Source: a virus | Strand: one strand, 5' to 3' | DNA: 21,546 bases | IMG/VR virus record: IMGVR_UViG_3300046389_000217 | Coordinates: 1-21,546 of that record | Shown: positions 2,138-17,867 of the stretch, piece after piece | Position numbering within the stretch: the stretch's first letter is position 1 | Layout of the letters: every line of letters starts with the position of its first letter | The notes under the pieces: generated by a model | The model's input: the letters and a program-made list of their open reading frames with translations, nothing else | Told to the model about the DNA's origin: nothing | The model's database searches: none | Program-made: the position numbers and the translations under genes

Positions 2138-2144
2138 TATTTAT
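2138..2144 (+). promoter_or_regulatory. TATTTAT motif, candidate late promoter, 4 bases before ATG
   Basis: TATTTAT is followed by TAGT and then the ATG at 2149. This 7-mer recurs before most virion genes in the window. With only 4 bases between motif and start codon, the transcript would be leaderless or nearly so if this is a -10-type element. Confidence 0.5.
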
Positions 2145-2148
2145 TAGT

Positions 2149-2517
2149 ATGGAATTTTTTATACGAAAAGGGGCTACAGACCCATTATTAAAATTAAGGT
2201 TGGTTGACGACGGTAAAAACGATAAGTCTTCTTTAAACGACTTATTAGAAAATGCCGACATTAGGTTTGATATGATTGATATCGAAACAGAGGTTCCTGA
2301 AATTTTAGGTGGTGAATGTTTATTGACAACAAGAACCAAAAAGTATGACCAAACTACAGAAGAATATTACATTACATATAGGTTCACATCAGAACAAACA
2401 AAAGAATCGGGTAAATTCGAGGGAATAGTTAACATACAATTTAGAGACACAGATTTACTACCCACAAATAAACTCATCGTTCCAATTAAGGAAAAACTCT
2501 ACATTAACATCATTTAG
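2149..2517 (+). CDS. Small structural protein, BppU N-terminal-like
   Basis: A 122-residue beta-rich protein. The N-terminal pattern (FIRKGATDPLLKLRLVDDGK) followed by a 'FDM-E' strand, a tyrosine-rich strand (EEYYITYRF) and a FEGIVNIQF strand resembles the N-terminal domain of baseplate upper protein (BppU) and related Ig-like modules that attach fibres to the baseplate. The end, PTNKLIVPIKEKLYINI, fits the closing strands of that fold. It stands alone, without a fibre region, so it may be an adaptor or a decoration protein. It follows the protease gene by 29 bases and has its own TATTTAT motif, consistent with a virion gene. The family assignment is by pattern only. Confidence 0.6.
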   Translation: MEFFIRKGATDPLLKLRLVDDGKNDKSSLNDLLENADIRFDMIDIETEVPEILGGECLLTTRTKKYDQTTEEYYITYRFTSEQTKESGKFEGIVNIQFRDTDLLPTNKLIVPIKEKLYINII

Positions 2518-2556
2518 AAAGTGCGCAAACATTAATGGAGAATATATGATATCCGT

Positions 2557-2588
2557 ATTGATATTATAACTTATTTTTCATATCTTTG
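2557..2588 (+). promoter_or_regulatory. Bacteroidota-type promoter (ATTG - 20 bp - TATCTTTG)
   Basis: TATCTTTG at 2581-2588 matches the Bacteroidota housekeeping -7 box TAnnTTTG. ATTG at 2557-2560 lies 20 bases upstream, where the TTTG -33 box is expected (one mismatch). It points at the DNA polymerase gene, whose start is 41 or 62 bases downstream. It would let unmodified host RNA polymerase transcribe the gene early, unlike the virion genes with TATTTAT motifs. Confidence 0.6.
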
Positions 2589-2628
2589 TATTAATTAAGG
2601 CAAACTATCCAACTAAGGGTAAGCTAAT

Positions 2629-5541
2629 GTGTCATCCAATTTTAATACAATGAACGAAATTATTTCCCAAGAGGTAATAGAAGAATTCCTCAACGGTTCG
2701 GACCCTGAAGAGTACATAACAGGATTAGAATATGAGTACCGAACAAACACAATCTACAAAATTATTCAACACCCCGAAAAGGGTAAAATTATTAGAAAGG
2801 ATAAGTTAACCGCATTCTTGTGGGTTGATGATCTTACTGGTTTAAATTTCTATGGTGATAGTAAGGCCAAACAACGTCAGAAAATGTCGGAGTATGGAAT
2901 CACTATTGAAAAGTTAGATACAGCCGATAATGAACGTTTAGAGAATGGTTATAATTTCTTAGTTAAAAGTAGTCAAGGTTATCGTTCACTTCTTAGTTTT
3001 TTTAGACAAGGGGGTTTAAATCCGTGGGACGAAGAAATAAGAAAACATTTTATACTACTTAACCCTAAAGAACAATATCTCATACAAAAAGAAAAAAGAT
3101 TATTTAAGGGTATTGAAGAATATGAAGATGTACATAGATTAGTTTTTGATATTGAAACAACAGGTCTTGAACCCGAAACAGATAAAATAATTCTAATTGG
3201 TTTAAAAGACAATAAAGGTTTTGTAAAGATTATTAATGCATTCGGTGAAGATGGTGAAAAGAATTGTATAATCGAATTTTTCAAATGTGTTGAAGAACTT
3301 AAACCTACAATCTTCTCTGGTTATAACTCCGCATTTTTCGATTTTCCGTTTATTATTAAAAGGGCCGAAATATTAGGAATAGATGTAGAAGAACATACTA
3401 AGGTTTTTATAGACCAAGGTATGAAAGAGAGGGAAGGTATGTTGAAACTTGCAAATGAAGTTGAGACCTACACCCAACATATGATTTGGGGAATGAATAT
3501 TCTTGATATCGCCCATTCAGTTAGGAGAGCCCAAGCAATTAATTCTGACATTAAGTCTTGGGGGTTGAAATATATTACAAAGTATTTGGGAGCCGAGAAA
3601 GACAATCGTGTTTATGTTGATGGTGCGTGGATTTCTAAAATATACTTGGATAATGAAAGTTATTATGTAAACCCAAAAACAGGTAACTATAAGAAAATAG
3701 GTGATCCCGGTACTGAGGGATTATTAGAAAAGTATCCGAATCAATTTGAGGTATGGACAGGTAGAAAAATTGTTGAACAATATCTTGATGACGATTTATA
3801 TGAAACTATGGTTGTTGATGATTCATTTAGTCAGTCAACATTCTTACTTTCTAAAGTTGTACCTACAACCTATGAACGTATATCTACTATGGGTACCGCA
3901 ACATTATGGAAACTAATAATGTTAGCTTGGTCATATAAACACAATTTGGCCGTACCTGAAAAACAAGATAGGAGAGCGTTTACGGGTGGACTATCAAGAT
4001 TACTCGCGGTGGGATACGCAGAAAAGGTGGTTAAGTTTGATTACTCCTCACTATACCCTTCTATTCAATTAGTATATGATGTGTTTCCTAAATGTGATGT
4101 TATGGGAGTACAAAAATCCATGTTAAAATATTTTAGAGACGTACGTATTAAATACAAAAAATTAGCGTCCGAACATTACAAAACAGATCCCGAACTATCG
4201 GAAAAATATAACAGGAAACAATTACCAATTAAGATATTCATTAATGCATACTTTGGGTCTCTATCCGCACCTCACGTATTTCATTGGGGTGATATGGATA
4301 CAGGAGAAACAATCACGTGTGTTGGTAGACAATGTTTACGTATGATGATAATGTTCTTTGAAAAGAAAGGATATAAGTCACTTGTAATGGATACGGATGG
4401 TGTCAACTTCTCGTGTCCTGATGATGTTGATGACAGAGTTTATGTATCTAAGGGTCTTAATGAGTTAGTAGAGGGTGGTAAAACTTACAGAGGTGCTGAG
4501 GCAGACACTGCGGAATTTAATGATATTTTTATGAGGAATGAAATGGGATTAGACATTGATTATGTCGCACCTTCCACAGTTAATGTTGCTCGTAAAAACT
4601 ATGTACTAAAAAAACCGAGTGGGGGTCTTAAATTAACGGGTAACACAATTAAGTCTAAGAACCTTCATGGTTACATTGTGGACTTCTTAGATGAAAGTTT
4701 GAAGTTAATGTTGGATGGTAAGGGACAAGAGTTTTTGGACGTATACTATAAATATATTAGTAAGATCTATAATAAAGAAATTCCATTATCTAAGATCGCA
4801 AATAAATCGAGAGTAAAATTATCCGTAGATAACTACTTAAAGTCCATGAAAACCAAAACTAAAAGTGGGGCATCTAAGGCAAGACAAGCACACATGGAAT
4901 TGGTTATGAAGAACAATTATCCTGCAGGTCTTGGGGAAACAATATATTACGTTAATAATGGTGAACGTAAGGGTGATGGTGATGTTCAAAAAATTACTAA
5001 ACCCACTAAGAAATTTCAAAAGGAATTCCTTGAAGAACATGGGTACCCTGTTCCCGAAAATTATATAAAAATTAACTCTTTCATGATTACTGAAAAGGAG
5101 TTAAAAGAAAATCCCGACATGAAGGGTGATTATAATGTTGCTCGTTATATTAATACATTTAACAAAAGAATAGAACCATTGTTAGTTGTATTTCATCCTG
5201 ACATTCGTAATGATATTATTATTGATAACCCCGATGATAGACCTTTCTTTACAATAAACCAATGTAAGTTGGTCAATGGGTTTCCGATGAAAGAAGGTAG
5301 TCAAGATAGTTTTGAAGAGGTTATGACATTATCCGATAGTGAAGTAATGTTTTGGAAGAAGGTTGGTAGGGATCCTTATTTTATGTATTTAGAAGATAGT
5401 CTTGAACACGTAGACCAATATTGGGTACAAAAGAATAGAGATGCTGTTAATTTTAAAGTTCCAAGTAGTCCCTCCCAAGAAGGTGATTTAATTGAAAGAA
5501 ATGGTCACGATTATGCGACACACACTGATGTAGATGTTTAA
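2629..5541 (+). CDS. Family B DNA polymerase with 3'-5' exonuclease
   Basis: Replicative DNA polymerase, 970 residues from a GTG start (963 from the ATG at 2650; the true start is uncertain), a little longer than T4 gp43. Proofreading motifs: Exo I DIETTGLEP from Asp174, Exo II YNSAFFDF with Asp238, and Exo III YLDDD at 385-389. Polymerase motifs: A is DYSSLYPSI from Asp471; B is the KIFINAYFG segment with Lys535, Asn539, Tyr541 and Gly543; C is DTDG at 588-591. A KKNYVLKK segment downstream matches the KxY motif. All catalytic acidic residues are present, so the enzyme should be active. Motif C has Gly where most family B enzymes have Ser. No intein or frameshift is visible. A host-type promoter lies just upstream, and the stop codon overlaps that of the convergent neck gene. 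Confidence 0.95.
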   Translation: MSSNFNTMNEIISQEVIEEFLNGSDPEEYITGLEYEYRTNTIYKIIQHPEKGKIIRKDKLTAFLWVDDLTGLNFYGDSKAKQRQKMSEYGITIEKLDTADNERLENGYNFLVKSSQGYRSLLSFFRQGGLNPWDEEIRKHFILLNPKEQYLIQKEKRLFKGIEEYEDVHRLVFDIETTGLEPETDKIILIGLKDNKGFVKIINAFGEDGEKNCIIEFFKCVEELKPTIFSGYNSAFFDFPFIIKRAEILGIDVEEHTKVFIDQGMKEREGMLKLANEVETYTQHMIWGMNILDIAHSVRRAQAINSDIKSWGLKYITKYLGAEKDNRVYVDGAWISKIYLDNESYYVNPKTGNYKKIGDPGTEGLLEKYPNQFEVWTGRKIVEQYLDDDLYETMVVDDSFSQSTFLLSKVVPTTYERISTMGTATLWKLIMLAWSYKHNLAVPEKQDRRAFTGGLSRLLAVGYAEKVVKFDYSSLYPSIQLVYDVFPKCDVMGVQKSMLKYFRDVRIKYKKLASEHYKTDPELSEKYNRKQLPIKIFINAYFGSLSAPHVFHWGDMDTGETITCVGRQCLRMMIMFFEKKGYKSLVMDTDGVNFSCPDDVDDRVYVSKGLNELVEGGKTYRGAEADTAEFNDIFMRNEMGLDIDYVAPSTVNVARKNYVLKKPSGGLKLTGNTIKSKNLHGYIVDFLDESLKLMLDGKGQEFLDVYYKYISKIYNKEIPLSKIANKSRVKLSVDNYLKSMKTKTKSGASKARQAHMELVMKNNYPAGLGETIYYVNNGERKGDGDVQKITKPTKKFQKEFLEEHGYPVPENYIKINSFMITEKELKENPDMKGDYNVARYINTFNKRIEPLLVVFHPDIRNDIIIDNPDDRPFFTINQCKLVNGFPMKEGSQDSFEEVMTLSDSEVMFWKKVGRDPYFMYLEDSLEHVDQYWVQKNRDAVNFKVPSSPSQEGDLIERNGHDYATHTDVDV

Positions 5542-6656
5542 ATCATATTAAAAGGAGATGGCATCGCTCTGTATTTTAACGATTTGTTGAGACTTTCGGC
5601 CTCATTTCCTTTTCTTTCCAACATTTTGTCAGGTCTTAACCTTTCCAATCTTTGTGATAACTCTTCGATAAGTTTTAGTTTCTCATCTTTACCTTCGGTT
5701 AATAGGGATTGGTAATCTAATTTAACTTGACTGTCAGGTACTTGTAGGTCACCTGAAAATTTAGAATATACTCTTCCTAACCCTTCTTTAGAGTATGCAA
5801 TAAGACATTTCCTAACCCATGTTTGTGCAGGTCTATTAAGTTCTTCCCACACTAATTCTTCGGTCTCTATATCGGAAGGTAATTTTACAACATCTTTATT
5901 TTTATCTAAACAATCATCCCTGTCTGTAGTATCATAATACCAATACCAAACATAGTAGTTATGTTGTTGTATGGAACCAAAATCAAACCTACCACCAGGT
6001 ACGTTAGCCAAGTGAATATATTTTTTACCTTCGGGTCCTGCAGTTATACGATAAGTCATTTCACCACCAATTAGTCGGTTTTTAATGTTCCTATCTTGCA
6101 TACGTGATAATAAATCATAAGCGGGTAACATAAAGTAAGAACCTGAAGTTCCCATTTGTGCAAAACCACCTACACCACCTGAACCTACACCACCAAGACC
6201 ACCGAATCCACCTAAAAATGGATCCACAATAGAGTCAGTCAATTCTGCACGTGTAAACCATAACAGTTCGTTTATTTCACGACCCGCAGGAATTTCGTAC
6301 ACTTGTTGATTTCGAACAAGTTCTATTTTGTCTTTTAGTAATTCAGAATCACCACCCGCCTGTAAACCGACAATTTTTGAATATGCGTGTGAGTATTGTG
6401 TTTCATAGTCTAATGATCTCGTAGTAAACGCTCTCGTCAAAGATTGCGTATCCACATTTAACCCAGCTAAAGATGACCACTGAGATTCAATTAACCAATC
6501 ACTTACATACTGTTCATATTCATCTAAGGATAATTCTAAGAAAGTATCCATTTGTTCTTCGGTCAATTCTATAGACCTAATAGGTGCCCCTAAAAGGTTA
6601 AAAACTTGAGTATAAAGTTTGTCTCGATTTGCCGGTGTGATAATAGTGCTTGCCAT
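5538..6656 (-). CDS. Neck protein, T4 gp13-like
   Basis: A 372-residue protein. The N-terminus (VFNLLGAPIRSIELTEEQ, then an acidic helix ending in YEQYVSDW) follows the T4 gp13 neck-family pattern 'LGaPv..iel...Q'. A Tyr/Trp-rich strand (NYYVWYWYYD, 233-242) leads into helices with AYSKEGLGRVYSKFSG (287-302) and VPDSQVKLDYQSLLTEGKDE, which fits the C-terminal part of that family. In T4, gp13 and gp14 form the ring closing the head portal before the tail docks. An unusual glycine-rich insert (about 149-172, GGFGGLGGVGSGG) breaks the middle. The gene is inverted relative to the gp14- and gp15-position genes, with two non-neck genes between them. The ATG is 15 bases after a TATTTAT motif. The identification rests on pattern and gene context, not on a search. 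Confidence 0.6.
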   Translation of the reverse strand: MASTIITPANRDKLYTQVFNLLGAPIRSIELTEEQMDTFLELSLDEYEQYVSDWLIESQWSSLAGLNVDTQSLTRAFTTRSLDYETQYSHAYSKIVGLQAGGDSELLKDKIELVRNQQVYEIPAGREINELLWFTRAELTDSIVDPFLGGFGGLGGVGSGGVGGFAQMGTSGSYFMLPAYDLLSRMQDRNIKNRLIGGEMTYRITAGPEGKKYIHLANVPGGRFDFGSIQQHNYYVWYWYYDTTDRDDCLDKNKDVVKLPSDIETEELVWEELNRPAQTWVRKCLIAYSKEGLGRVYSKFSGDLQVPDSQVKLDYQSLLTEGKDEKLKLIEELSQRLERLRPDKMLERKGNEAESLNKSLKYRAMPSPFNMI

Positions 6657-6671
6657 ACTTGATTTATTAAT

Positions 6672-6678
6672 ATAAATA
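6672..6678 (-). promoter_or_regulatory. TATTTAT motif, candidate late promoter for the neck gene
   Basis: Read on the minus strand this is TATTTAT, 15 bases before the ATG of the neck gene at 6656. It is preceded by an A/T-rich AAAC, as at the 9331 site. Confidence 0.5.
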
Positions 6679-6709
6679 GTTTATATTTAGGAAAAACAGA
6701 ACAACAATT

Positions 6710-7546
6710 TTGGATTTAAATAAAATAAGACTCAAACATCGTAAAACACTTAACATATGGAGGTATATTTCTCAAACTTCCAAATTCAATAGAAAGTTTA
6801 GTAAAGAAATAACAAGAATTGTTAGAGAAACCCATTCAGGGGATGAGTTAAGATGGAGATCACCTATGGGTTCTGTTGGTGATGGTTACTACAATTACGA
6901 TGAAGATACTAAATCATATAGTTTTAGAAGTGGGATTAATTTTATTAATACGGGTTATTCTTATCAGGAGTATATTGAAAGGGTTTTAAATGAAAAATAT
7001 GGTATTAAATTACCCTATGAAACTGATAATGAGGGTAAATATATTGATGAGACTGTAGAAGAAACTTTGAAGGAGTTTTGTTATTACTTAGAACTTTATA
7101 AAGAGGATTTTCTTTTTGATGGTGATATAAAGAATCACATAGACCTTATAAGATATAGATTAAAAGTAATATCTGATCGTTCGGAAAAATTAATAGAAAA
7201 TAATTTTAAGAACATATGGACCAATTCAATTAGTTACCTTTCGTCTACAGGAAATGGTGGTAATATAAAAGATTTTAAAGGTATTGATGCTGAGGTAATA
7301 TTTGATCACGGGGTTGAAACTGTACAGTGTAAGGAAGTAAGTTTTATTGAGGAAAATGATAATACAATCAATATAACACTAACAATGGACAGTAAAAAAT
7401 ATTCAAATATCAATTACTACGCATTTACACAAGACAAGAATTATATTGTTTTTAAAAACGACTCAGAGGGTATAGAAATTTTAAGTTCTATGGAGGGTAA
7501 TGTTTATTCTTTTAATAAGAACTTAATTATATGTTCTACGTTTTAA
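6710..7546 (+). CDS. Protein of unknown function with PD-(D/E)XK nuclease-like signature
   Basis: A 278-residue protein with a basic helical N-terminus and an acidic, aromatic middle. Near the C-terminus, GIDAEVIFDHGVETVQCKEV (191-210) has the spacing of the GxD...QxK core of Mrr-like PD-(D/E)XK nucleases, with Asp193, Gln206 and Lys208 as candidate active-site residues. The following strand, NYYAFTQDKNYIVFKN, fits the strand after the core. The whole-protein fold is unproven; it could be a DNA nuclease, a homing-type intruder or an inactive relative. The start must be TTG at 6710, because an in-frame stop lies at 6677 and no ATG occurs before codon 53. TATTTAG at 6684-6690 is a degenerate form of the window's promoter-like motif. 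The gene ends 11 bases inside the convergent helicase gene. Confidence 0.55.
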   Translation: MDLNKIRLKHRKTLNIWRYISQTSKFNRKFSKEITRIVRETHSGDELRWRSPMGSVGDGYYNYDEDTKSYSFRSGINFINTGYSYQEYIERVLNEKYGIKLPYETDNEGKYIDETVEETLKEFCYYLELYKEDFLFDGDIKNHIDLIRYRLKVISDRSEKLIENNFKNIWTNSISYLSSTGNGGNIKDFKGIDAEVIFDHGVETVQCKEVSFIEENDNTINITLTMDSKKYSNINYYAFTQDKNYIVFKNDSEGIEILSSMEGNVYSFNKNLIICSTF

Positions 7547-9290
7547 TATTTTTAACTAACTCACTACCAAAACTTTCAGAGTATTCACCATCACCCATTA
7601 CCTGATCTATTATATCTTTCTTTTTCTGTAATATATTATAGATGGTCATTTCAATAGTATTTTCGAAAACGGGATAGTAGACAAGTACACTGTTCTTCTG
7701 TCCATACCTATACGCTCTGTCTTCTGCTTGTGAGTGGTCAGCAGGAACAAACGATAAATCATTAAAGATAACCGTATCTGCGGCTGTTAAAGTTATACCA
7801 ACTCCTGCCGCTTTTATATTACCAATGAATATCTTTACTTTATCTTCATTTTGAAATCTATCGACGGATTGTTGTCTCCTATCCTTTGACATCCTACCGT
7901 CTAACACCACCGCTTTCTTTCCATATTTCTCATAAATCATATCTAAAGACATGGTAAAATTGGTAAAAACTATTACTTTTCTGCCCTGTTCTAAAACCTT
8001 GTCGATTAATTCACAAGTATGGTCTACTTTCTCTATTGCGATAAGTTGTCTTAATTTCATTAATCTATTAAGAGTAACCGTGAGACTCTCTTTCTTCCTA
8101 TTTTCCTTACTTATCCTTAAGAACTCACTTAATTCATCATCATAAAATGAGTTTTTTAGTTCTAACCATATTGGGGAAATTATTTTTTCGGGTAGATCTA
8201 AAATATCAGTCTTCATTCTCCTTAAAACAACCGCCTTAGTTTGTTCTCTTAATTCATCTAAATTACTTGCACCACTTGTATTCCATATTTTCCTACCACC
8301 AACTCTAAATTGGTAACCCTTACAATATCTTAAAACATAACTCTTCCAATTAAGTGTTAGAGGTGAGTTTACAATTTTTAATAAGTTGAAATAGTTGATT
8401 GGTCTTGAGGTCATGGGTGTGCCCGTGAGTAACCAAACCTTAGGTATTTTTGCAAGTATGTCATTTAACAGTTTTGTTCTCTGTGCCTGACTATTTGAGA
8501 TGTAGTGTGCTTCGTCAACTATCGCTAAATCAAACCCTTCATTTAAAATTATTTTATATGCGTCACTATCCTCGGTATTCTCTGTTGTGTGAAAGTTTTT
8601 AAGTATATCATAGTTTATGATGTAATATTTAAAAGTGGACCCCCACTTCTTACCTTCAACAATTAATACATTTTCATCCGAATAGAGTTCTATTTCTCTC
8701 TTCCAATTGATTTTAAGGGATGCTGGACAAACTATTAATACCTTTTTAACATCACTCTCCAAAGATGCAATAACTGTACTTGTAGTCTTCCCTAACCCCA
8801 TATCGTCGGCAAGAATAAATTTATTGTTGGCCAATAATTTTTCTATTGCTATTTTTTGGTGTTCCATTGGAGGTCTGTGAGAATATGGACTATAATCTAC
8901 TTCACGGTCTAAGGTCTTCTCTTCTTGAATAACAGACGCTTTCGGTATCCACATAGATATGGGTTTCATATCATTAGTTAAGTTCCCCCATATATTATAT
9001 GCCTTATCACTCTCACATAGTAATTTCTCCACCCAAACTTGTTCGACGGGTTTCATAAGTAGTCTGTCTTCTTGTAGTTTAGTACCAAAGGACTTTGCAA
9101 TTGATAGATACTTTCGAGCAACTTTAGGTACTACCTCATGATATTTTATGACGTAGTCTGACTGTGGACGAGTTAAACTATAATTTTTCGATCTTTCGAA
9201 TTTATGTTTTAGGTCCAATATATGGTTATTATAACCTGTATATCCTGTTACAATCTCCCTTGCTTGTATTTCGGGTAATAACTTTCCCAT
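7536..9290 (-). CDS. SNF2-family DNA helicase/translocase
   Basis: A 584-residue SF2 ATPase of the SNF2 class, resembling compact SMARCAL1-type and phage SNF2 enzymes. Motifs in order: Q-like region PMEHQKIAIE (141-150); Walker A DDMGLGKT (162-169); motif Ia VCPASLKINW; DEAH box at 259-262 in IVDEAHYISN; motif III LLTGTPMTSR (287-296); the second RecA lobe with VIVFTNF, then GNIKAAGVGITLTAADTVIF (490-509); and motif VI QAEDRAYRYGQ (521-531). All expected ATPase residues are present. The N-terminal 140 residues hold no domain I can name. Such enzymes remodel forks, drive annealing or strip proteins from DNA; T4 UvsW is a functional but not close counterpart. The gene lies inside the neck-gene block on the opposite strand. 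A weak TATTTAG (9304-9298) precedes the ATG. Confidence 0.92.
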   Translation of the reverse strand: MGKLLPEIQAREIVTGYTGYNNHILDLKHKFERSKNYSLTRPQSDYVIKYHEVVPKVARKYLSIAKSFGTKLQEDRLLMKPVEQVWVEKLLCESDKAYNIWGNLTNDMKPISMWIPKASVIQEEKTLDREVDYSPYSHRPPMEHQKIAIEKLLANNKFILADDMGLGKTTSTVIASLESDVKKVLIVCPASLKINWKREIELYSDENVLIVEGKKWGSTFKYYIINYDILKNFHTTENTEDSDAYKIILNEGFDLAIVDEAHYISNSQAQRTKLLNDILAKIPKVWLLTGTPMTSRPINYFNLLKIVNSPLTLNWKSYVLRYCKGYQFRVGGRKIWNTSGASNLDELREQTKAVVLRRMKTDILDLPEKIISPIWLELKNSFYDDELSEFLRISKENRKKESLTVTLNRLMKLRQLIAIEKVDHTCELIDKVLEQGRKVIVFTNFTMSLDMIYEKYGKKAVVLDGRMSKDRRQQSVDRFQNEDKVKIFIGNIKAAGVGITLTAADTVIFNDLSFVPADHSQAEDRAYRYGQKNSVLVYYPVFENTIEMTIYNILQKKKDIIDQVMGDGEYSESFGSELVKNIKT

Positions 9291-9330: not shown

Positions 9331-9337
9331 TATTTAT
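9331..9337 (+). promoter_or_regulatory. TATTTAT motif, candidate late promoter, 4 bases before ATG
   Basis: TATTTAT is followed by CTAT and then the ATG at 9342. The 14-base block TATTTATCTATATG is identical to the one before the tape measure gene at 16035-16048. Confidence 0.6.
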
Positions 9338-9341: not shown

Positions 9342-9854
9342 ATGAGTAAAAAATTACCAATTAAAAGAATGAGTAAATTCTTCTCTGAGGAAGACTTTGA
9401 CTTTAATGTTCAAATAGGTCAGGAATATCTTCATGGGGATTTAAATATGAAATTGGTACTCTACCGTGTTGATACTGAGAGTACAGATACTGATGCTGTA
9501 TATGCTGAAGTCGGGAAAGATCAAATAAAGTTTTTCCCACCTATCGAGTTCAACGCATTAGTTAAAATAGAACCACCTAAAAATGAATCTTACAAACCCG
9601 GTTTAGTCCGTTATATAGAGCCTGGTAATATGACCGTATCTGTTTACATAAGTCATTTACAAGATTTAGGGGTTGACATAAAATACGGAGATTTTATTGC
9701 ATATCCTGAAACAGAAGATAAAGTTAGATATTATACAGTTTCAAATGACGGTAAAGTAACATCTGACAATAGACATAATATGTTTGGGTTTAAACCACAT
9801 TACAGAACAATAACATGTGTACCAGCACAAGAATCGGAATTTAGAGGAATTTAA
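9342..9854 (+). CDS. Virion structural protein in the gp14 (neck) position
   Basis: A 170-residue, largely beta protein. The C-terminal half has a GDFIAYPET segment followed by YYTVSNDGKV, then FGFKPHYRTITCVPA. This layout (a 'GD.I.yp' strand, a hydrophobic strand, an aromatic turn) is reminiscent of the T4 gp14 neck protein, where GDLIYFPMD is followed by a similar strand, but the overall similarity is too low to be sure. Position supports a neck or connector role: the next gene, only 2 bases away, is a gp15-like tail completion protein, and the gp13-like gene lies upstream on the other strand. It is translated from an ATG 4 bases after a TATTTAT motif, with no Shine-Dalgarno. It could instead be another head-tail joining protein. 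Confidence 0.5.
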   Translation: MSKKLPIKRMSKFFSEEDFDFNVQIGQEYLHGDLNMKLVLYRVDTESTDTDAVYAEVGKDQIKFFPPIEFNALVKIEPPKNESYKPGLVRYIEPGNMTVSVYISHLQDLGVDIKYGDFIAYPETEDKVRYYTVSNDGKVTSDNRHNMFGFKPHYRTITCVPAQESEFRGI

Positions 9855-9856: not shown

Positions 9857-11089
9857 ATGGCAATACCAAAAAGAAAAAATAACATAAAGGTTTATCAAGG
9901 TAATGAGTTAATGGGTAGGCGACAGGAATTACTCGATAAGATCACTCAAGGTGATTCCTATCTTCCTGATTCGGTATTACATGATGATTTGGACTTGGGT
10001 ATGTTAGATTTTGTTAAAAAGAATTTTGTAGTCGTTTCGGACGGTGTACAAATTCCCATCATACCTAAAATTTTGACACTTCAAAGATGGGGTGAGTTTA
10101 CAAACACGTGGAATTTTTCAGATTTAGATGGTAATCCGTCTCTACCTTTTATAAGTGTCATAAGGAAACCAGATGTACAACTTGGTACTAATCCGAGTTT
10201 ACAGAGAACTATACCTGATCGACAACAATTTCACTACGCCACAGTACCGACATGGAATGGTACTCAGGTAGGTGCTGACATATATAAGATACCTCAACCT
10301 GTCCCTATTGATATAAGTTACGATATTACTATTGTTTGTACAAAATTCAGAGATTTAAATAAGTTTAATCAAATAATATTACAGAAGTTTACTTCAAGAC
10401 AGGCATATACCACGGTAAAAGGACATTATGTCCCAATAGTGTTAGATAATATAGAAGACAACACACCCGTGAATTTAGAAACAAGAAGATTCTACGTCCA
10501 AAACTATAAGTTCACTTTATTAGGTTTTATTATAGACGATGAAGAATTTGAAGTGAAACCCGCAGTTAGTAGATTATTTTTAATGAATGAGTTTATTAAA
10601 AGTAATAATTTTGAGAAAAAATATTTAACTAAGAATTTAGAGATTACTGTCGCTAATTTCACTGCTGATGGAGTACAAACAATCTTTAGTGTGGGTGAAA
10701 CGATAGGTATACTTTTTAATACCACCATTAATGGATTACTACAAGAAAGGGGTGTTGAATTTAATCATGTTTCTTTAACTTCTAAAATAAGTTTTGTTGA
10801 ACCTCCGAGAGAAGGGTCCAAAGTAACAATTACTTATTACAAAGGTAGGTCAAGTGTTTTTGTCGATTCCGACGGGAATGTTAGACAGGTATCTACAGAA
10901 TATTTTGACTACTCAGGAGGTGGTCTTTCATTTACTACAGTAAACAATATAGATAGTGTTATTAGTTTAGATTTAAACGGTCTATTATTAGAAGAAGGTA
11001 GTGATTTCGATATTACGGGTGGTACTGAAGTAACACTAAATGGAACTCCTCGAATTGGTTCAAGAATAGGTATTACTTATTTATTTTAA
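9857..11089 (+). CDS. Tail sheath stabiliser/completion protein, gp15-like, with C-terminal beta repeats
   Basis: A 410-residue protein. Residues about 50-240 match the layout of T4 gp15, the ring that caps the tail tube and sheath and joins them to the neck. IPIIPKILTLQRW corresponds to the early strands. PVPIDISYDITIVCTKFRDLNKF (149-171) matches the 'P.pi...Y.l.i.tr..d' segment, and the VPIVLDN...LETRRFYVQNYKFTLLGFI region (192-225) matches 'i.l....dn...rR.....f...g'. T4 gp15 is 272 residues, so about 150 are added here. The extra part has two related beta modules: about 264-329, with INGLLQERGVEF and GSKVTITYYKG, and about 356-410, with LNGLLLEEGSDF and GSRIGITYLF. Such 'NGlL.e.G.dF' units recur in phage structural proteins. 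The gene begins 2 bases after the previous one, and its stop codon sits in a terminator hairpin. Confidence 0.7.
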   Translation: MAIPKRKNNIKVYQGNELMGRRQELLDKITQGDSYLPDSVLHDDLDLGMLDFVKKNFVVVSDGVQIPIIPKILTLQRWGEFTNTWNFSDLDGNPSLPFISVIRKPDVQLGTNPSLQRTIPDRQQFHYATVPTWNGTQVGADIYKIPQPVPIDISYDITIVCTKFRDLNKFNQIILQKFTSRQAYTTVKGHYVPIVLDNIEDNTPVNLETRRFYVQNYKFTLLGFIIDDEEFEVKPAVSRLFLMNEFIKSNNFEKKYLTKNLEITVANFTADGVQTIFSVGETIGILFNTTINGLLQERGVEFNHVSLTSKISFVEPPREGSKVTITYYKGRSSVFVDSDGNVRQVSTEYFDYSGGGLSFTTVNNIDSVISLDLNGLLLEEGSDFDITGGTEVTLNGTPRIGSRIGITYLF

Positions 11090-11130
11090 CCCACTGGGTT
11101 TTTTGGGTTTTTATTTTAACCCACTGGGTT
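11081..11130 (+). repeat. Two identical 20-base direct repeats containing terminator hairpins
   Basis: TTATTTTAACCCACTGGGTT occurs at 11081-11100 and again, identical, at 11111-11130, a 30-base period. The first copy contains the last codons and TAA of the gp15-like gene. Each copy holds the same short inverted repeat. Confidence 0.9.
11088..11117 (+). terminator. Rho-independent terminator of the gp15-like gene, duplicated downstream
   Basis: AACCC (11088-11092), loop ACT, GGGTT (11096-11100), then a T-rich tract (TTTTGGGTTTTTATTTT). The stem is only 5 bp, but a second identical hairpin follows at 11118-11130, which may make up for it. The stop codon TAA overlaps the 5' arm. Confidence 0.6.
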
Positions 11131-11132
11131 TA

Positions 11133-11192
11133 TATTTTAATTGGCACAAACCCGCCACACATACATGATATGTATTTTAATTGGCAGAAACC
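11133..11192 (+). repeat. Two near-identical 20-base direct repeats with 40-base period
   Basis: TATTTTAATTGGCACAAACC at 11133-11152 and TATTTTAATTGGCAGAAACC at 11173-11192 differ at one base. They share the leading TATTTTAA with the repeat pair just upstream. The second copy ends at the stop codon of the small minus-strand gene. Between them lies ACATA-CATGA-TATGT (11159-11173), a short inverted repeat. They could be protein-binding sites or debris of a local duplication. Confidence 0.85.
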
Positions 11193-11350
11193 TATTCACC
11201 GTATAAACCTCTTTTTCGATCCACACAATTGGTTTCTATCCACTTTTCCACAACTTTATAAATTTTAAAACCATTATCATCACAATACTTTTTTAAGATA
11301 TCATGGTGTTTTTGACTTATTTTGATGTTTTTGGGGGTTTTGTCGCTCAT
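11192..11350 (-). CDS. Small ribbon-helix-helix-like DNA-binding protein (52 aa)
   Basis: The minus strand encodes a 52-residue protein, from the ATG at 11350 to the TAG at 11194-11192. It starts MSDKTPKNIKISQKHHDILK, continues KKYCDDNGFKIYKVVEKWIE and ends in a basic/polar tail. A short strand (KNIKIS), a helix (QKHHDILKKYCDDNG), a turn and a second helix (KIYKVVEKWIETN) give the ribbon-helix-helix plan of Arc/CopG-type regulators, which bind DNA as dimers through the strand. Composition and spacing look like a real gene, and a TATTTAT motif lies exactly 4 bases before its ATG, as for three other genes here. It sits alone on the minus strand between the gp15-like gene and the sheath gene, so it may regulate one or both. 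The fold is inferred from pattern only. Confidence 0.65.
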   Translation of the reverse strand: MSDKTPKNIKISQKHHDILKKYCDDNGFKIYKVVEKWIETNCVDRKRGLYGE

Positions 11351-11407
11351 AAAGATAAATATAGATAAAAAAATATCTTTAAATATCCCAAAATAGAAAA
11401 CTTGGGA
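11351..11407. promoter_or_regulatory. Inverted repeats between the RHH-like gene and sheath gene, possible operator
   Basis: Two inverted repeats lie in the divergent gap: AAAGATA (11351-11357) with TATCTTT (11374-11380), spanning the minus-strand TATTTAT motif, and TCCCAA (11386-11391) with TTGGGA (11402-11407). They are candidate binding sites for the adjacent regulator-like protein, though short inverted repeats are common in AT-rich DNA. Confidence 0.35.
11355..11361 (-). promoter_or_regulatory. TATTTAT motif, candidate promoter of the RHH-like gene, 4 bases before ATG
   Basis: Read on the minus strand: TATTTAT, CTTT, ATG. The spacing is the same as at 2138, 9331 and 16035. Confidence 0.5.
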
Positions 11408-11428
11408 ACTCTTTACTAAAAACTAAGA

Positions 11429-11435
11429 TATTTAT
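11429..11435 (+). promoter_or_regulatory. TATTTAT motif, candidate late promoter of the sheath gene
   Basis: TATTTAT lies 35 bases before the ATG at 11471. The spacing is the same as for the tube gene. The intervening bases are A-rich and free of G-rich ribosome sites, as expected for a Bacteroidota leader. Confidence 0.55.
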
Positions 11436-11470: not shown

Positions 11471-14284
11471 ATGGCAAATTCAAACAGAGTATTCGTTTCT
11501 CCAGGTGTATATACCTCAGAAAAGGATTTAACGTTCGTAGCACAAAGTGTGGGTGTGACCACATTAGGGTTATCAGGTGAGGCACTAAAAGGACCTGCAT
11601 TTGAACCAATTCTAATAAGAAATTTTGACGAATTCAAAACATATTTTGGACCTACTTCACCAACTAAATTTTCGGACGGTAACCCAAAATACGAATTGGG
11701 TTATGTCGCAAAATCATACCTTCAAGAATCTAACCAATTATTTGTAACAAGAGTTTTAGGTTTGACGGGTTACGTACCAAAAATAACATACGCAATTAAA
11801 ACATTAGGCGGAATAACAGTAGACCTTACAGGTGGAACTACAAATACGGTAGAGGATCTTATAGGAACTGGTTTAGATATTTCAACTTATTCATTATTTG
11901 AAAACCTAAGTGGGAAGACAGCAAATGATGGAAGTTCTATGTCTGACTGGATTACAAATTTAGGTGTCTTAGCTGACGGATCATGGTTTACTATTGGTTT
12001 AGTTGATGGGGCAGAAACATTAAGTTTGGGATCGTCTTTACAGATAGCGGGACCAATAGGAACAAACAACAATAACAATTGGTATAACACTTATTTTACA
12101 GAAAACGGTCTTGGAGTAGTATCGGGTGTAAGTTCTTACCTTTTTGTTTGGGATCAGACAGATAACGGATTCAAAATAACAGAGTTTAGTTATAATGCTT
12201 CAGTAAATTCTGACTACGACAATATAGTGGTACTATCACTAAGATCAAGAGGATCGTACCAAGGACAAACATTAAACCTTGAATTAGGTTCATCAAGTGA
12301 CATAAGTATTGCGTCATCCACTTTAGGGACCGACCCACTATCAGAATTTACACTTAATGTTACAGGTTCTACAAGTGGTGCTAAATCATTTACATGTACG
12401 TTGAATACATCATCTACTAAATATGTTTCTAAAGTATTGGGTAATACTAATTTTGATAAGAAGAAAAATGAAGTACCTCTTTATGTTTTTGAAGAGTATC
12501 CAAAATTATTATCAGCACTTTACGGACAAGGACTTGTTAGAGGTTTAGACATTACACATGTTTCACATAACGTAGGAAACGATTATTTAAATCAATGGGA
12601 AACACCAGCATCACCAACAGTTGTATCTGAAGTGAGAGGTGGTATTGTTTCCGACCTATTCAGTGTAATTAGTATATCAGATGGAAATGCTGCAAACACA
12701 CAATTAAAAATTCAAGTTCAGAATATTGACCTTGATTCAGGTGAGTTTGATTTGATAATTAGAGATTTTAATGATACTGATAATAATATTTCAGTACTTG
12801 AAAAATTCTCAAGATGTACAATGAACCCTGACCTACCTGGTTACATCGCTAAAAAGATAGGTACTTCAGATGGTGAGTATGAGTTACGTTCGAAATATAT
12901 AATGTTGAACATGGCTGAAGATGCACCTGTAGATGCATTTCCTGCAGGATTTAAAGGATTTACATCAGATTTCTTAGGTACATCTAAAGTTGGTAACGTA
13001 CTATTCAAAACAAAATATAATGTGGCGGGTGACGTTGTTTCTTATAACTCACAAGGTACAGAACAAAAAACTAACGGAGATAAAATCAGAAAAGTTACTT
13101 TAGGTTTATCATCTCAAATTGGTTTCGATAGAGATTTATTTGAATATAAAGGAAACGCTGCGAGTTCAACATCACATAGTTTCCACCTTTCAAGTCAGGC
13201 GTCTGGTATATCAGGTTTTAAAACAACACCGTATGATTTAGAAGGAAATGATAAAGGTTTATTAGAAAGTAAATCATATAGAAAATTTACATTCGCAGTT
13301 TGTGGTGGTTTTGATGGTTGGGATATCTACAGAGGAACAAGAACAAATGGAGATGGTTACATCTTTGGTAAAAACACTTATGTAAGTGGACACACATCTA
13401 ACGGTGGTGTATTTAGTGATACTGTTGGAAACTCAGATTATTACGCATATTTAGCGGGAATTGAAACATTCTCTAATCCTGAAGCGGTTGATATCAACAT
13501 ATTTGCAACACCAGGTATTGATTTCTATAACCATAGTTCATTAACTAATCAAGCAATTGATATGATAGAAGGTGATAGAGCGGATTCATTATACATCACT
13601 AACTCACCTAACACTTCAGATGTTGACGAAATAGTTGACCAATTGGATGAAGTTGATTTAGATACTAACTACACGGCAACATATTGGCCTTGGATACAAG
13701 TAAGAGATGGGGACAATGCAACTCAGTTATACATTCCACCAACAGGTGAGGTTGTTAAGAATATCGCACTAACAGATAACGTTTCTTATCCTTGGTTCGC
13801 AGTAGCGGGATACCAAAGAGGTTTAGTAAATGCAATCAAAGCGAAGAAGAAGTTGACGTTAGATAACAGAGATGATCTATATAATGCAAGAATTAACCCA
13901 ATTGCAACGTTCTCAGATACGGGTACTATAATTTGGGGTAACAAAACATTACAAGTTAGAGAGTCTGCACTTGATAGAATCAACGTAAGAAGATTATTAT
14001 TAAGAGCGAGAAAATTAATTTCAGCGGTGGCAGTTAGATTGTTATTTGAACAAAATGACGAACAAGTAAGAAATGAATTTTTAAGATTGGTTAACCCAAT
14101 ATTAGAATCTATTAAGAAAGAAAGAGGTTTATACGAATTTAGAGTAGTTGTGTCTAACGATCCAGAAGATATAGACGCGAACACACTAAGAGGTAAGATT
14201 TATGTTAAACCAACTAGATCTCTTGAATTCATTGATGTAGAATTCTTAATTACTCCAACAGGAGCATCATTTGAGAATATCTAA
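11471..14284 (+). CDS. Tail sheath protein, T4 gp18-like
   Basis: Contractile tail sheath subunit, 937 residues against about 659 for T4 gp18. The N-terminus has the sheath signature FVSPGVYTSEKD (8-19), then an AILIRNFDEF-like segment (LIRNFDEFKTYFG) and YVAKSYLQESNQLFVTRVL, the conserved start of the core domain. The C-terminal 240 residues are the polymerising core: YWPWIQVRDGD, WFAVAGYQRGLV, RINPIATFSDTGTIIWGNKT, INVRRLLLRARKLIS, then GLYEFRVVVSNDPEDID and KIYVKPTRSLEFIDVEFLI. The middle (about 110-690) is long and Gly/Ser/Asn-rich. It should hold the variable, outward-facing insertion domains that account for the extra length. Subunits surround the tube and contract to drive it into the cell. 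The gene has its own TATTTAT motif with a 35-base A-rich leader and is followed by a structured gap. Confidence 0.93.
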   Translation: MANSNRVFVSPGVYTSEKDLTFVAQSVGVTTLGLSGEALKGPAFEPILIRNFDEFKTYFGPTSPTKFSDGNPKYELGYVAKSYLQESNQLFVTRVLGLTGYVPKITYAIKTLGGITVDLTGGTTNTVEDLIGTGLDISTYSLFENLSGKTANDGSSMSDWITNLGVLADGSWFTIGLVDGAETLSLGSSLQIAGPIGTNNNNNWYNTYFTENGLGVVSGVSSYLFVWDQTDNGFKITEFSYNASVNSDYDNIVVLSLRSRGSYQGQTLNLELGSSSDISIASSTLGTDPLSEFTLNVTGSTSGAKSFTCTLNTSSTKYVSKVLGNTNFDKKKNEVPLYVFEEYPKLLSALYGQGLVRGLDITHVSHNVGNDYLNQWETPASPTVVSEVRGGIVSDLFSVISISDGNAANTQLKIQVQNIDLDSGEFDLIIRDFNDTDNNISVLEKFSRCTMNPDLPGYIAKKIGTSDGEYELRSKYIMLNMAEDAPVDAFPAGFKGFTSDFLGTSKVGNVLFKTKYNVAGDVVSYNSQGTEQKTNGDKIRKVTLGLSSQIGFDRDLFEYKGNAASSTSHSFHLSSQASGISGFKTTPYDLEGNDKGLLESKSYRKFTFAVCGGFDGWDIYRGTRTNGDGYIFGKNTYVSGHTSNGGVFSDTVGNSDYYAYLAGIETFSNPEAVDINIFATPGIDFYNHSSLTNQAIDMIEGDRADSLYITNSPNTSDVDEIVDQLDEVDLDTNYTATYWPWIQVRDGDNATQLYIPPTGEVVKNIALTDNVSYPWFAVAGYQRGLVNAIKAKKKLTLDNRDDLYNARINPIATFSDTGTIIWGNKTLQVRESALDRINVRRLLLRARKLISAVAVRLLFEQNDEQVRNEFLRLVNPILESIKKERGLYEFRVVVSNDPEDIDANTLRGKIYVKPTRSLEFIDVEFLITPTGASFENI

Positions 14285-14324: not shown

Positions 14325-14346
14325 CTATCCAAAAGTAAAAATTGAG

Positions 14347-14470: not shown

Positions 14471-14512
14471 GTAGTTCTCAAATAAAAAAGAAAAATATTT
14501 CGTGAAGAGATA

Positions 14513-14519
14513 TATTTAT
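14513..14519 (+). promoter_or_regulatory. TATTTAT motif, candidate late promoter of the tube gene
   Basis: TATTTAT lies 35 bases before the ATG at 14555, exactly as for the sheath gene. The leader is A-rich (AATAATAGAATAACAAATAT and on) with no Shine-Dalgarno. Sheath and tube are the most abundant tail proteins, so a shared longer leader may aid translation. Confidence 0.55.
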
Positions 14520-14554
14520 AATAATAGAATAACAAATATAACAAAAATACAGAC

Positions 14555-15043
14555 ATGGCAGATTTATTAATGAAAATGCCGGTTCCTTACGAACCGAAAA
14601 GAGTTAACCGATTTATCGTTAGGTTCCCTTCATCATTGGGTATCAACGAGTGGTATGTAACATCAGCGGCTAGACCGAGTGCAAAAATCAACTCAGTAGA
14701 GATTCCTTTCTTAAATACTTCAACTTATGTTGCAGGTAGATTCGTATGGAATGAATTAAGAGTTAAGTTTAAAGATCCAATCGGACCATCAGCGTCTCAA
14801 GCGTTAATGGAATGGTTTAGATTACACGCAGAATCAGTAACAGGAAGAATGGGTTATGCTGCAGGGTATAAAAAAGATATTGAATTAGAAATGTTAGACC
14901 CAACAGGTGTTGTGGTTGAAAAATGGATTTTACAAGGTTCATTTATGACTGACTTAAACTTTAATGAACTTGACTACAACAATGATGCATTAGCAACAAT
15001 TGATTGTACGTTAAGAATGGATAGATGTATCCAAGTATACTAA
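14555..15043 (+). CDS. Tail tube protein, T4 gp19-like
   Basis: A 162-residue protein, essentially the length of T4 gp19 (163). It begins with a short arm and PKRVNRFIVRFPSSLGINEW, then WYVTSAARPSA and IPFLNTSTYVAGRFVWNELRVKF, where strands of the tube barrel are expected. A helix follows (SASQALMEWFRLHAE, about 80-94). The end, EKWILQGSFMTDLNFNELDY and ATIDCTLRMDRCIQVY, is typical of gp19-family proteins. Hexamer rings stack to form the inner tube through which DNA passes; the sheath packs around it. It sits directly after the sheath gene, as in T4, with its own TATTTAT motif and a strong terminator after the stop. Confidence 0.93.
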   Translation: MADLLMKMPVPYEPKRVNRFIVRFPSSLGINEWYVTSAARPSAKINSVEIPFLNTSTYVAGRFVWNELRVKFKDPIGPSASQALMEWFRLHAESVTGRMGYAAGYKKDIELEMLDPTGVVVEKWILQGSFMTDLNFNELDYNNDALATIDCTLRMDRCIQVY

Positions 15044-15067
15044 AAAAATAATCTGTCGAAATATTTC

Positions 15068-15108: not shown

Positions 15109-15123
15109 AACTTTACTTTATAC

Positions 15124-15130
15124 TATTTAA
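15124..15130 (+). promoter_or_regulatory. Degenerate TATTTAA motif before the gp26-like gene
   Basis: TACTATTTAATAG includes TATTTAA, one base off the recurrent TATTTAT, 18 bases before the ATG at 15149 and just after the tube terminator, where a new promoter is needed. Confidence 0.35.
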
Positions 15131-15148
15131 TAGTTACATTTAAACAGT

Positions 15149-16034: not shown

Positions 16035-16041
16035 TATTTAT
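16035..16041 (+). promoter_or_regulatory. TATTTAT motif, candidate late promoter, 4 bases before ATG
   Basis: TATTTAT, CTAT, then the ATG at 16046. The stop of the preceding ORF is the TAG ending one base before the motif. Confidence 0.55.
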
Positions 16042-16045
16042 CTAT

Positions 16046-17836
16046 ATGGACGATATCAACAAAATAATTAACGACCTACAGAAGCGGGGAGTGCTGAATG
16101 ATAAGGACGGAAATATGCTTGACGATAAGACAATCGGTCAAATCAAAAACAAATACAAAAATGTTGGTAATAACAGTTCAAGAGGTAACTCAGTTGGTGG
16201 TGATGATTTTAAATCCTCTATTGTTGATGTGATTGCCGGAGCAACACTACAACCATATGCACCTGAAGATACTAATATTCTTAAGGAATTGGCTCAGAAT
16301 TATAAACCACCAACCGATGGTGGTAGTCAGACAGGTGCGGTTATTAGTTCTTTAATTAAAACTGCGATGAGTGGGATAGGTGATTATGTAAAAGAACAAT
16401 CCTATTTACTTACGTTTGTTAATAAAGAATTGGGTTTAGCGGGAGAACTATCTCAAAAGTTTAGGGAATCAGTCACTGACGCTCAACCTGACCTAAGAAG
16501 AATGGGAATTCCTTTCAAGGAGATGACCGATTCTGTAGGTAAATTAATAGAAGATACGGGTAGGTTTGCATTGGTTGGTACAGATATGTTAGTACGTGCG
16601 GGTGAAATCGCGGGTGCATATGGTATGAAGATGTCCGAAGTTATCGGTGCATATGACGACTTTGAAAAAGTAGGTATAGGTGCGGCACAAGCACAAGAAT
16701 CAATTGCCGATGCGGGTAAACGATCTTTAGAGGTTGGAATACAATCAAGACAAACCATTCAAGGAATGATAGAGAATGTTGGAAAACTGAATGAATATGG
16801 TTTCCAACAAGGGGTTGAAGGTCTCGAGAAAATGGTTAGAAGATCAACCGAAATTAGAATGAGTTTAAGTGAAACATTTAAAGTGGCGGATAAAGTATTT
16901 TCACCTGAAGGGGCGTTAGAACTATCTGCAGAATTAGGTGTTTTAGGTGCGGCGTTTGGAGATTTTAATGACCCACTAAGACTTATGTATATGGCAACCA
17001 ATGAAGTAGAAGGGTTACAAGGGGCATTGGAAGGTGTGGCAGGTAATTTGGCAACCTACAATATGGAGACAGGTGGATTTGAAGTGACAGGTGCTAACCT
17101 TAGACAGGCAAGAGAAATTGCGAGTAAGTTAGGTATAGACATGAAAGAACTTACCCAATCAGCGATCGCACTACAAGAACGTCAACAGGCGGCGTTAGCG
17201 TTAGAAGGTTTAAATATTAACCCTGAAAACAAGGAATTCCTAACCAACCTCGCGAGAATGAAGGACGGAGAAATGTCAATTGATCTACAAGCGGCGGGAT
17301 TGGAAGAAGAGTTTGGAAAAAGTTCAATTAAATTAAGTGAATTAAATGGTGATCTAGCCGACAAACTAATAGGTTTTCAAGACGAATTTAAAGACAAATC
17401 AGAAAAAGACCTCATAAGAGAACAAGTAACTTTAGTCGAAAACATAAGTAGGGATGTTAACTATTTAGCGTTGTTGGCTAGAATGGAAGTGGCTGGTGTA
17501 GGTGACAAAGCGGTACAAGCATTATCTTCAATGAGTGCAAAAGAGGCGGGTGGAGATATAAGTAGTTTATTATATAAAGGTACTGATTCCTTAGTAGAAA
17601 TGTTTGGTGAACAAAAGGCGGAACTTATAAAAGGTATACAAACCCAAATGGGTATAGACCCAACCGAATTTAAAAAACCTCAAAACGTTCCTCTTGAAAC
17701 CACCCAACAAGATAAGACAGTTAAACATGAAGTTGAAATTAAGGCTAAAGATGCAATTACTGGGTTCTACCAAAAGGAATGGTCGTTAAATCCTGAGAGA
17801 TGGGTTCAAGGTAAAGGTTATTTAGACCCTAATTAA
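16046..17836 (+). CDS. Tape measure / baseplate hub tail-length protein (gp29-like)
   Basis: A 596-residue, mostly helical protein rich in Ala, Gly, Glu and Lys, almost exactly the length of T4 gp29 (590), which sets tail length and is part of the hub. The segment after the tube, the gp26-like gene and the small second-frame ORF is the classic tape measure position. Residues about 85-130 hold an amphipathic to hydrophobic stretch (TGAVISSLIKTAMSGIGDYV) and the middle has long helices (GKLIEDTGRFALVGTDMLVR, ALELSAELGVLGAAFGDF) typical of tape measure proteins. The C-terminal end (KTVKHEVEIKAKDAITGFYQ, then WSLNPERWVQGKGYL) is more polar and may anchor to the baseplate or tube tip. A length of about 600 residues would predict a tail near T4's in length if the usual length rule holds. 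Sequence identity to gp29 cannot be shown by eye. Confidence 0.75.
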   Translation: MDDINKIINDLQKRGVLNDKDGNMLDDKTIGQIKNKYKNVGNNSSRGNSVGGDDFKSSIVDVIAGATLQPYAPEDTNILKELAQNYKPPTDGGSQTGAVISSLIKTAMSGIGDYVKEQSYLLTFVNKELGLAGELSQKFRESVTDAQPDLRRMGIPFKEMTDSVGKLIEDTGRFALVGTDMLVRAGEIAGAYGMKMSEVIGAYDDFEKVGIGAAQAQESIADAGKRSLEVGIQSRQTIQGMIENVGKLNEYGFQQGVEGLEKMVRRSTEIRMSLSETFKVADKVFSPEGALELSAELGVLGAAFGDFNDPLRLMYMATNEVEGLQGALEGVAGNLATYNMETGGFEVTGANLRQAREIASKLGIDMKELTQSAIALQERQQAALALEGLNINPENKEFLTNLARMKDGEMSIDLQAAGLEEEFGKSSIKLSELNGDLADKLIGFQDEFKDKSEKDLIREQVTLVENISRDVNYLALLARMEVAGVGDKAVQALSSMSAKEAGGDISSLLYKGTDSLVEMFGEQKAELIKGIQTQMGIDPTEFKKPQNVPLETTQQDKTVKHEVEIKAKDAITGFYQKEWSLNPERWVQGKGYLDPN

Positions 17837-17849
17837 TTTGAGGGTTTTT
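17826..17849 (+). terminator. Weak terminator overlapping the tape measure stop codon
   Basis: ACCCT (17826-17830), a 10-base loop containing the TAA stop, AGGGT (17841-17845), then TTTTT. The stem is only 5 bp, so termination is probably partial. The stop-in-hairpin layout resembles that at 11088. Confidence 0.4.
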
Positions 17850-17860
17850 CATCTTAAATC

Positions 17861-17867
17861 TATTTAT
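17861..17867 (+). promoter_or_regulatory. TATTTAT motif, candidate late promoter of the large baseplate gene
   Basis: TATTTAT lies 14 bases before the ATG at 17882, followed by ATTAAAAAGAAATT. It comes right after a weak terminator, where a fresh promoter would be expected. Confidence 0.5.

Follow-up and report, generated by a model that had tools for sequence, protein, structure and literature searches.

We analysed a candidate late promoter element, the heptamer TATTTAT, in a 21,546-base virus sequence (IMG/VR record IMGVR_UViG_3300046389_000217, positions 1 to 21,546; hereafter the window, meaning this whole stretch). The window carries a T4-like gene set: DNA polymerase, head-tail adaptor, UvsW-type helicase, tail sheath, tail tube and baseplate hub. 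An initial annotation had placed TATTTAT before eight genes on both strands and proposed it as a phage-specific late promoter. All eight exact sites were found, with coordinates and strands in agreement, and are given here with the genes that follow them and with one variant site (genes were called with a simple open reading frame (ORF) script, and start positions are approximate; aa, amino acids; nt, nucleotides):

2138..2144, plus strand: TATTTAT, 4 nt before the gene of a 122-aa protein of no family (2149..2517, plus strand), predicted leaderless
6672..6678, minus strand: TATTTAT, 15 nt before the neck (head-tail adaptor) gene (5538..6656, minus strand; phrog_211 match)
9331..9337, plus strand: TATTTAT, 4 nt before the gene of a 170-aa protein of no family (9342..9854, plus strand), predicted leaderless
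11355..11361, minus strand: TATTTAT, 4 nt before a 52-aa ORF (11192-11350, minus strand) divergent from the sheath gene and kept in relatives, most with their own TATTTAT box
11429..11435, plus strand: TATTTAT, 35 nt before the tail sheath gene (11471..14284, plus strand; family match)
14513..14519, plus strand: TATTTAT, 35 nt before the tail tube gene (14555..15043, plus strand; family match)
15124..15130, plus strand: variant box TATTTAA, before the baseplate hub gene; TATTTAT stands at the same place in two related loci, L017 and L020
16035..16041, plus strand: TATTTAT, 4 nt before the gene of a 596-aa protein of no family (16046..17836, plus strand), predicted leaderless
17861..17867, plus strand: TATTTAT, 14 nt before the gene of a 1221-aa protein of no family (17882..21544, plus strand), open at the window end

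A virion role for the genes behind the boxes, which the annotation had assumed, is borne out by family matches for neck, sheath and tube, only three of the eight; a PHROGs scan at E 0.001 returned no match for the 122-, 170-, 596- and 1221-aa proteins, and the 52-aa ORF lay outside the scan. The window holds 11 copies of TATTTAT on both strands, the remaining three being at 1817 (minus), 4748 (minus) and 11078 (plus, 386 nt before the next start on the same strand). Shuffled sequences gave 13.65, so the count is not raised, and the signal lies in the placement. A start on the same strand follows 8 of the 11 copies, at 4, 4, 4, 4, 14, 15, 35 and 35 nt (binomial P about 7e-14 for eight copies within about 40 nt of a start, with sites treated as independent), a placement that had rightly been called not random-looking. 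Among the 21 arrangements of its own letters, TATTTAT came first with eight upstream regions; the runner-up had four.

Every 7-mer was then scored for over-representation in the 60-nt regions preceding called genes of at least 60 aa, and the words were ranked accordingly (P values assume independent positions). The start-proximal enrichment proposed in the annotation was found in the window (7/14 genes, 0.19 expected, 1 antisense) and in six of six related contigs, TATTTAT ranking first in each: G006 (9/33 genes, 0.43 expected, 1 antisense), G005 (9/31, 0.35, 2), G004 (12/35, 0.45, 2), G001 (40/144, 1.88, 9), G003 (25/100, 1.32, 6) and G002 (46/252, 3.02, 18). G006, a fragment of 47.7 kilobases (kb), is near-identical to the window phage, and the phages of G002 and G003 are likewise almost identical. 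In the positive control, the T4 late region returned ATAAATA first (13/55 genes, 0.83 expected), and in cyanophage P-HM2 TAAATAA and then ATAAATA lead (6 and 4 of 46 genes). TATTTAT ranks first in the contigs while TATAAAT and ATAAATA do not, and its sense copies outnumber the antisense ones before genes (40 versus 9 in G001, 46 versus 18 in G002), which rules out the T4 element read in the opposite orientation and upholds the view that the motif is not simply the T4 element.

The ranking extends to more distant phages. In the structural region (112-160 kb) of the cultured Flavobacterium phage immuto, TATTTAT was first (16/48 genes, 1.10 expected); it was first, more weakly, in Mel-JY01, deposited as a Microcystis phage (8/38 genes, 1.18 expected). 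In Rhodothermus phage RM378 (80-130 kb) the top 7-mer before genes was TATTTAA (15/54 genes, 0.76 expected). TATTTAT was not enriched in the huge phage LR756508, where TATTTAA was weakly so (7/98 genes, 0.68 expected). Mel-JY01 has both the late box and capsid kinship in common with the Flavobacterium phage, and its deposited host deserves a check; it also encodes ribosomal protein S21 (L192 10204-10431; PP395634.1 22183-22410), and our literature search found no paper on it.

The element is kept at orthologous genes. With upstream regions thinned to non-redundant relatives, TATTTAT was present in 93 of 93 summed over five genes: sheath (21/21, 33-40 nt from the start), tube (22/22, 33-45 nt), neck (16/16, 13-20 nt), the 170-aa gene (18/18, 4-7 nt) and the 1221-aa gene (16/16, 10-18 nt). 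For the sheath gene it was found in 78/78 loci examined, of 80 fetched, two loci beginning inside the gene having been left out. The 122-aa gene has it in 10 of 13 non-redundant relatives, nine of these at 4-5 nt, and the 52-aa ORF in 9 of 11, four at 4-5 nt and the rest at 24-28 nt, although the first codon is not ATG in three box-bearing rows of that alignment. Few starts could be aligned for the 596-aa gene; its 595-aa counterpart in G001 has TATTTAT at 4 nt. The hub gene is mixed (box in 4/8 rows with an ATG start), and the helicase is doubtful, with TATTTAT in 8/19, yet most of the 14 rows printed show a TATATTT-type site. The 410-aa gene, which starts 2 nt after its neighbour, has TATTTAT in 0/15 relatives. 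Near-matches had also been noted before 15149, 6710 and 9290. The first (TATTTAA) is a variant of the same element; that at 9290 is doubtful, since most relatives in the printed alignment of 14 carry a TATATTT-type site, and is not clearly late; that at 6710 belongs to a host-type promoter described below. Upstream of the sheath gene, an ATCTTTG-7 nt-CAAAGAT inverted repeat runs into TATTTAT (window 11409-11435) in many of the loci L010-L080; none was seen at other late genes, and the repeat may be a candidate regulator-binding site.

Gene arrangement bears on where the box stands. An intergenic tally over the related contigs (G003 left out) found it before 6 of 206 co-directional genes at a gap of at most 10 nt versus 89 of 222 at a larger gap, and co-directional intergenic DNA held 99 copies along the direction of transcription versus 13 opposed. 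By gene class, the box precedes 8 of the 9 clear structural genes of G001 (terminase, portal, prohead protease, neck, sheath, tube, hub and gp25-like wedge) versus 1 of 16 replication and metabolism genes (Fisher P 7e-5), the one non-structural gene being the helicase with its doubtful box. In this tally neck, sheath, tube, hub, helicase and polymerase were named after the window's proteins. Weak or ambiguous names were left out: a ClpP-like 'head maturation protease' without a box (8/10 if counted), a trypsin-like protease and a weak endolysin, both without a box, and two weak tail matches, both with one.

The distance between the box and the start codon has a sharp lower limit. Across 186 loci (2.08 Mb) we counted TATTTAT, k bases, then an ATG opening at least 40 codons; contexts were thinned for exact repeats only, so related phages are counted repeatedly. 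Spacings of 0, 1, 2 and 3 nt gave 3, 0, 1 and 3 sites, and spacings of 4, 5, 6 and 7 nt gave 109, 36, 19 and 6, a hard edge at 4 nt, with further groups at 13-20 and 27-38 nt. Stricter thinning left 33 of 99 sites at 4-6 nt. Nine rearranged 7-mers, TATAAAT and TATTTGT showed no comparable step; the highest single control count, 33, came from ATTTATT at 3 nt, a word overlapping TATTTATT. In Flavobacterium johnsoniae, 4 or 5 nt separate the end of many -7 elements from the transcription start, and leaders exceed 10 nt in 87% of predicted transcripts (PMC6847099). The edge at 4 nt, taken with this element-to-start spacing of the host, suggests that many messages of the clade are probably leaderless, those of genes with the box at 4-6 nt starting at or beside the start codon.

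Other genes of these phages carry a different, two-element promoter. Two such sites lie in the window:

2558..2588, plus strand: host-type promoter TTG-N20-TATCTTTG, belonging to the DNA polymerase gene and matched by a counterpart in G001
6659..6690, plus strand: host-type promoter TTG-N20-TATATTTAG before a 278-aa gene (6710), of the same form as the immuto early promoters

The DNA polymerase gene indeed lacks TATTTAT and has a host-type promoter instead, as first described. The TATTTAG at 6710 was rejected as a late box: TTG-N20-TATATTTAG is found there, and the matching locus in L024 has the strict host form, TTG-N20-TATATTTG. Clade-wide, TATTTAG had no TTG partner above background (7/363 at the early position, mean elsewhere 6.7), in contrast to TATATTTG (21/155, mean 3.0). 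The immuto early region shows GTTG, about 20 nt and TATATTTAG; 15 of its 16 sites have TTG at a single fixed position, whereas TTG stood there in 1 of 19 immuto late TATTTAT sites and 2 of 100 clade late sites. The top TTG count at any position among the latter was 7/100, so that the late sites have no -33 partner. Strict host-type promoters (TTG-N17-22-TANNTTTG) lie upstream of 15 genes in five contigs, DNA polymerase being among them in G001 and G006, and TATTTAT occurs within 60 nt of none of the 15, some of which may be chance matches. That the hosts are Bacteroidota rests on the cultured Flavobacterium relative and on these host-type promoters.

Two groups of such promoters stand out. In immuto (NC_055915.1 62-76 kb; L124) there are fifteen near-identical early GTTG-N-TATATTTAG promoters, each before a small gene, and GTATCAATAATTAAAA comes next in most of them. 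At about 219-243 kb of G002, several host-type promoters have the longer start TTGGAATATTCGAAA, or a close variant, in common, as if they were a separate class with its own regulator.

Late transcription in T4 uses the sigma factor gp55, the co-activator gp33, the clamp gp45 and an 8-bp TATA box. A divergent late sigma and co-activator system had been suggested for the window phage, and its sigma half found support in the longer relatives: a weak gp55 family match was present in G001, G002, G003 and immuto, although the shorter contigs G004-G006 gave no match. The T4 gp55 query finds the G001 protein at E 2.4e-5 and the G002 protein at E 2.1e-4, and the match to the immuto protein (KNV73_gp118 region) spans residues 4-126 (32% identity, E 8e-7). 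The gp55-like family comprises 66 loci in viral contigs; its profile placed T4 gp55 best among PDB sequences (E 0.0086) and matched only gp55 among nine T4 proteins. A search with phrog_12791 gave no match. The AlphaFold2 model of the gp55-like protein has a mean predicted local distance difference test (pLDDT) score of 80, and among the rows shown it matched sigma factors, T4 gp55 from the open complex coming second (Z 10.8, 4.3 Å, 120 residues), although the tool cautions that helical models can commonly give Z values of this size. The protein carries about 95 further residues, helices; this C-terminal domain alone had no clear match among PDB chains, which does not show a new fold. Sigma tails in the nearest clade (LDFINY and similar) resemble the T4 gp55 and gp33 tails (LDFLY, LDFLL) and would suit clamp binding; farther members lack them.

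The co-activator half fared less well. T4 gp33 searched against the ORFs of G001, G002 and immuto (62-160 kb) gave a best E of 0.52; the gp45 clamp was not found with phrog_223 (0/11 records) or PF02916 (0/11), nor the bacterial beta clamp with PF00712 (0/10 records). These results speak neither for nor against clamp-coupled activation of the T4 kind.

Box and sigma factor also occur together. In 39 IMG/VR records (37 of the 66 sigma loci plus G001 and G002), the pattern TATTTATN{4,5}ATG was present in 39/39, with 398 copies versus 74 reversed, and stood above its control in 38 of the 39; the same comparison gave 6 versus 1 in immuto and 4 versus 2 in T4.

We propose, with a probability of roughly 0.82, that TATTTAT is the single late-gene promoter element of this T4-like phage group and is read by the phage gp55-like sigma factor with the host RNA polymerase. 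Its promoter role, its reading by this protein, the exact start site and the late timing are all inferred from sequence. The 7-mer rank, strand asymmetry, orthologue conservation and near-absence inside operons, together with the lack of a -33 element, the lack of overlap with host promoters and the gp55-like sigma in longer relatives, speak for the phage-specific late promoter of the initial annotation. In the proposed mechanism, host RNA polymerase carrying the phage sigma would read TATTTAT on the coding strand and start about 4-5 nt past its last base. A box 4-6 nt before the ATG would give a message beginning at or next to the start codon, an ATG closer than 4 nt would not be transcribed, and a box 12-45 nt upstream would yield an A-rich leader. 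Other genes, such as DNA polymerase, would be served by the two-element host promoter (TTG, followed after about 20 nt by TANNTTTG or TATATTTAG).

Several observations weigh against this proposal. The gp55-like sigma is absent from the window and from its near-copy G006, both of which are fragments. Its AlphaFold2 model has a predicted template-modelling (pTM) score of 0.43 and found no Foldseek match at E 0.001, the hhalign probability against T4 gp55 is 34%, and Pfam Sigma70_r2 stays below the cut-off. Among the genes, the box is missing before the major capsid gene of G001, and most of the 29 box-bearing G001 genes scanned lack a named family. The 13 convergent regions contain 6 TATTTAT copies in 2,166 bases, above our expectation. 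At 62-112 kb of immuto, TATTTAT ranks 39th (7/66 genes, 1.14 expected) and other words lead; immuto also has few sites at 4-6 nt (4 of those counted), so that the leaderless class would be a habit of the clade rather than of all relatives, and leaderless spacing was not seen among the listed Mel-JY01 and RM378 sites. Finally, in RM378 the related box TATTTAA occurs alongside an annotated sigma that shows no match to the gp55-like family.

The last point bears on the strongest alternative, that the promoter is read by a host sigma factor, primary or alternative, perhaps with a phage activator, and not by the gp55-like protein. No recognised member of the family occurs in the 50 kb of RM378 tested, the distance from the box to the inferred start equals that of the host -7 element, and TATTTA is contained in the immuto early box TATATTTAG. 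We nevertheless regard a host sigma as improbable, because the late sites have neither the -33 TTG nor the TTTG end, late boxes and host-type promoters do not overlap, and all 37 contigs chosen for carrying the sigma hold box-ATG pairs (370 copies versus 71 reversed).

The peak 4-6 nt before the ATG would also suit a ribosome, and Bacteroidetes messages are described as free of Shine-Dalgarno sequences (PMC6847099), so that the motif could be a translation-initiation signal acting in the message as a Shine-Dalgarno stand-in. This is very unlikely: at the sheath and tube genes all 43 non-redundant relatives keep the box 33-45 nt ahead of the ATG, and the box nearly vanishes inside operons, is missing from genes with host-type promoters and is not found before the 410-aa gene close behind its neighbour. 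An RNA-processing site, where AU-rich cleavage close upstream of starts would make the 5' ends before late genes, has an even slimmer chance, since the box is kept at the heads of divergent units (neck and the 170-aa gene), where the neighbouring gene provides no same-strand transcript, and 28 divergent regions contain 25 copies. Chance in AT-rich DNA, which the unraised window count would allow, is rejected as negligible on placement, rank, strand bias, orthologue conservation and the spacing edge.

The gp55-linked promoter proposed here would give a large, mostly uncultured T4-like phage group (80 sheath loci kept of 592; 66 sigma loci) a testable late promoter and a likely sigma factor. From it follow predicted transcription starts, precise to one or two bases, and predicted leaderless messages of named genes; immuto is a cultured laboratory relative of the group.

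Two further features of the window lie outside this argument. Directly after the 410-aa gene there are TTTTAACCCACTGGGTTT repeat units (11080-11145), perhaps a terminator. Proline-threonine-rich repeats occur in the open-ended first ORF (window 1-309) and near the end of the next, protease-like protein (323-2119).

We compared the clade box with known systems on the basis of PMC2988020, PMC7892883, PMC6847099, PMC7824862, PMC5312081 and PMC6024767; among the titles and abstracts listed from the open-licence literature, none dealt with a TATTTAT late promoter. The likenesses to T4 are a single box near the -10 position without a -35/-33 element, boxes before virion genes on both strands within a T4-like gene set, and a gp55-like sigma, seen by sequence and fold in the four relatives named above. 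Unlike in T4, the box is TATTTAT and not TATAAATA; it lies nearer the inferred start, many boxes being 4-6 nt from the ATG (14-32 nt for the 15 sites in the T4 pieces tested); and the sigma has its extra helical residues, with gp33 and gp45 not found. Because the TATAAATA box was tested and does not describe these sites, and the activators were not detected, the best reading of the sequences is a variant rather than a plain member of T4-type late transcription.

The Bacteroidota primary-sigma promoter (-33 TTG, -7 TANNTTTG) resembles the late box in that its element ends 4-5 nt before the start (PMC6847099). The late box differs from it in having no TTG peak at -33 and no TTTG end, and in these phages the Bacteroidota-type promoter sits before other genes. 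What is new would be the class of probably leaderless messages and the placing of the box in the -7 register of the host. Tentatively, and with more doubt than confidence, the whole may be a T4-type late system rebuilt for Bacteroidota, with a new -7-register box, a gp55-like sigma whose C-terminal domain may replace gp33 and the clamp, and a large leaderless class in a phylum where F. johnsoniae makes mostly leadered messages. RM378 likewise has a single TATTTA-type box top-ranked before genes, although its element ends in A and its listed TATTTA sites lie at least 6 nt from the start. The cyanobacterial T4-like phages P-HM2 and S-PM2 have T4-like late genes in common with the clade and a box of the ATAAATA kind instead, as described for S-PM2 in PMC2988020. 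The late-box series of T4-like phages (ATAAATA, TATTTAA, TATTTAT) offers natural material for following the joint change of a minimal sigma factor and its box.

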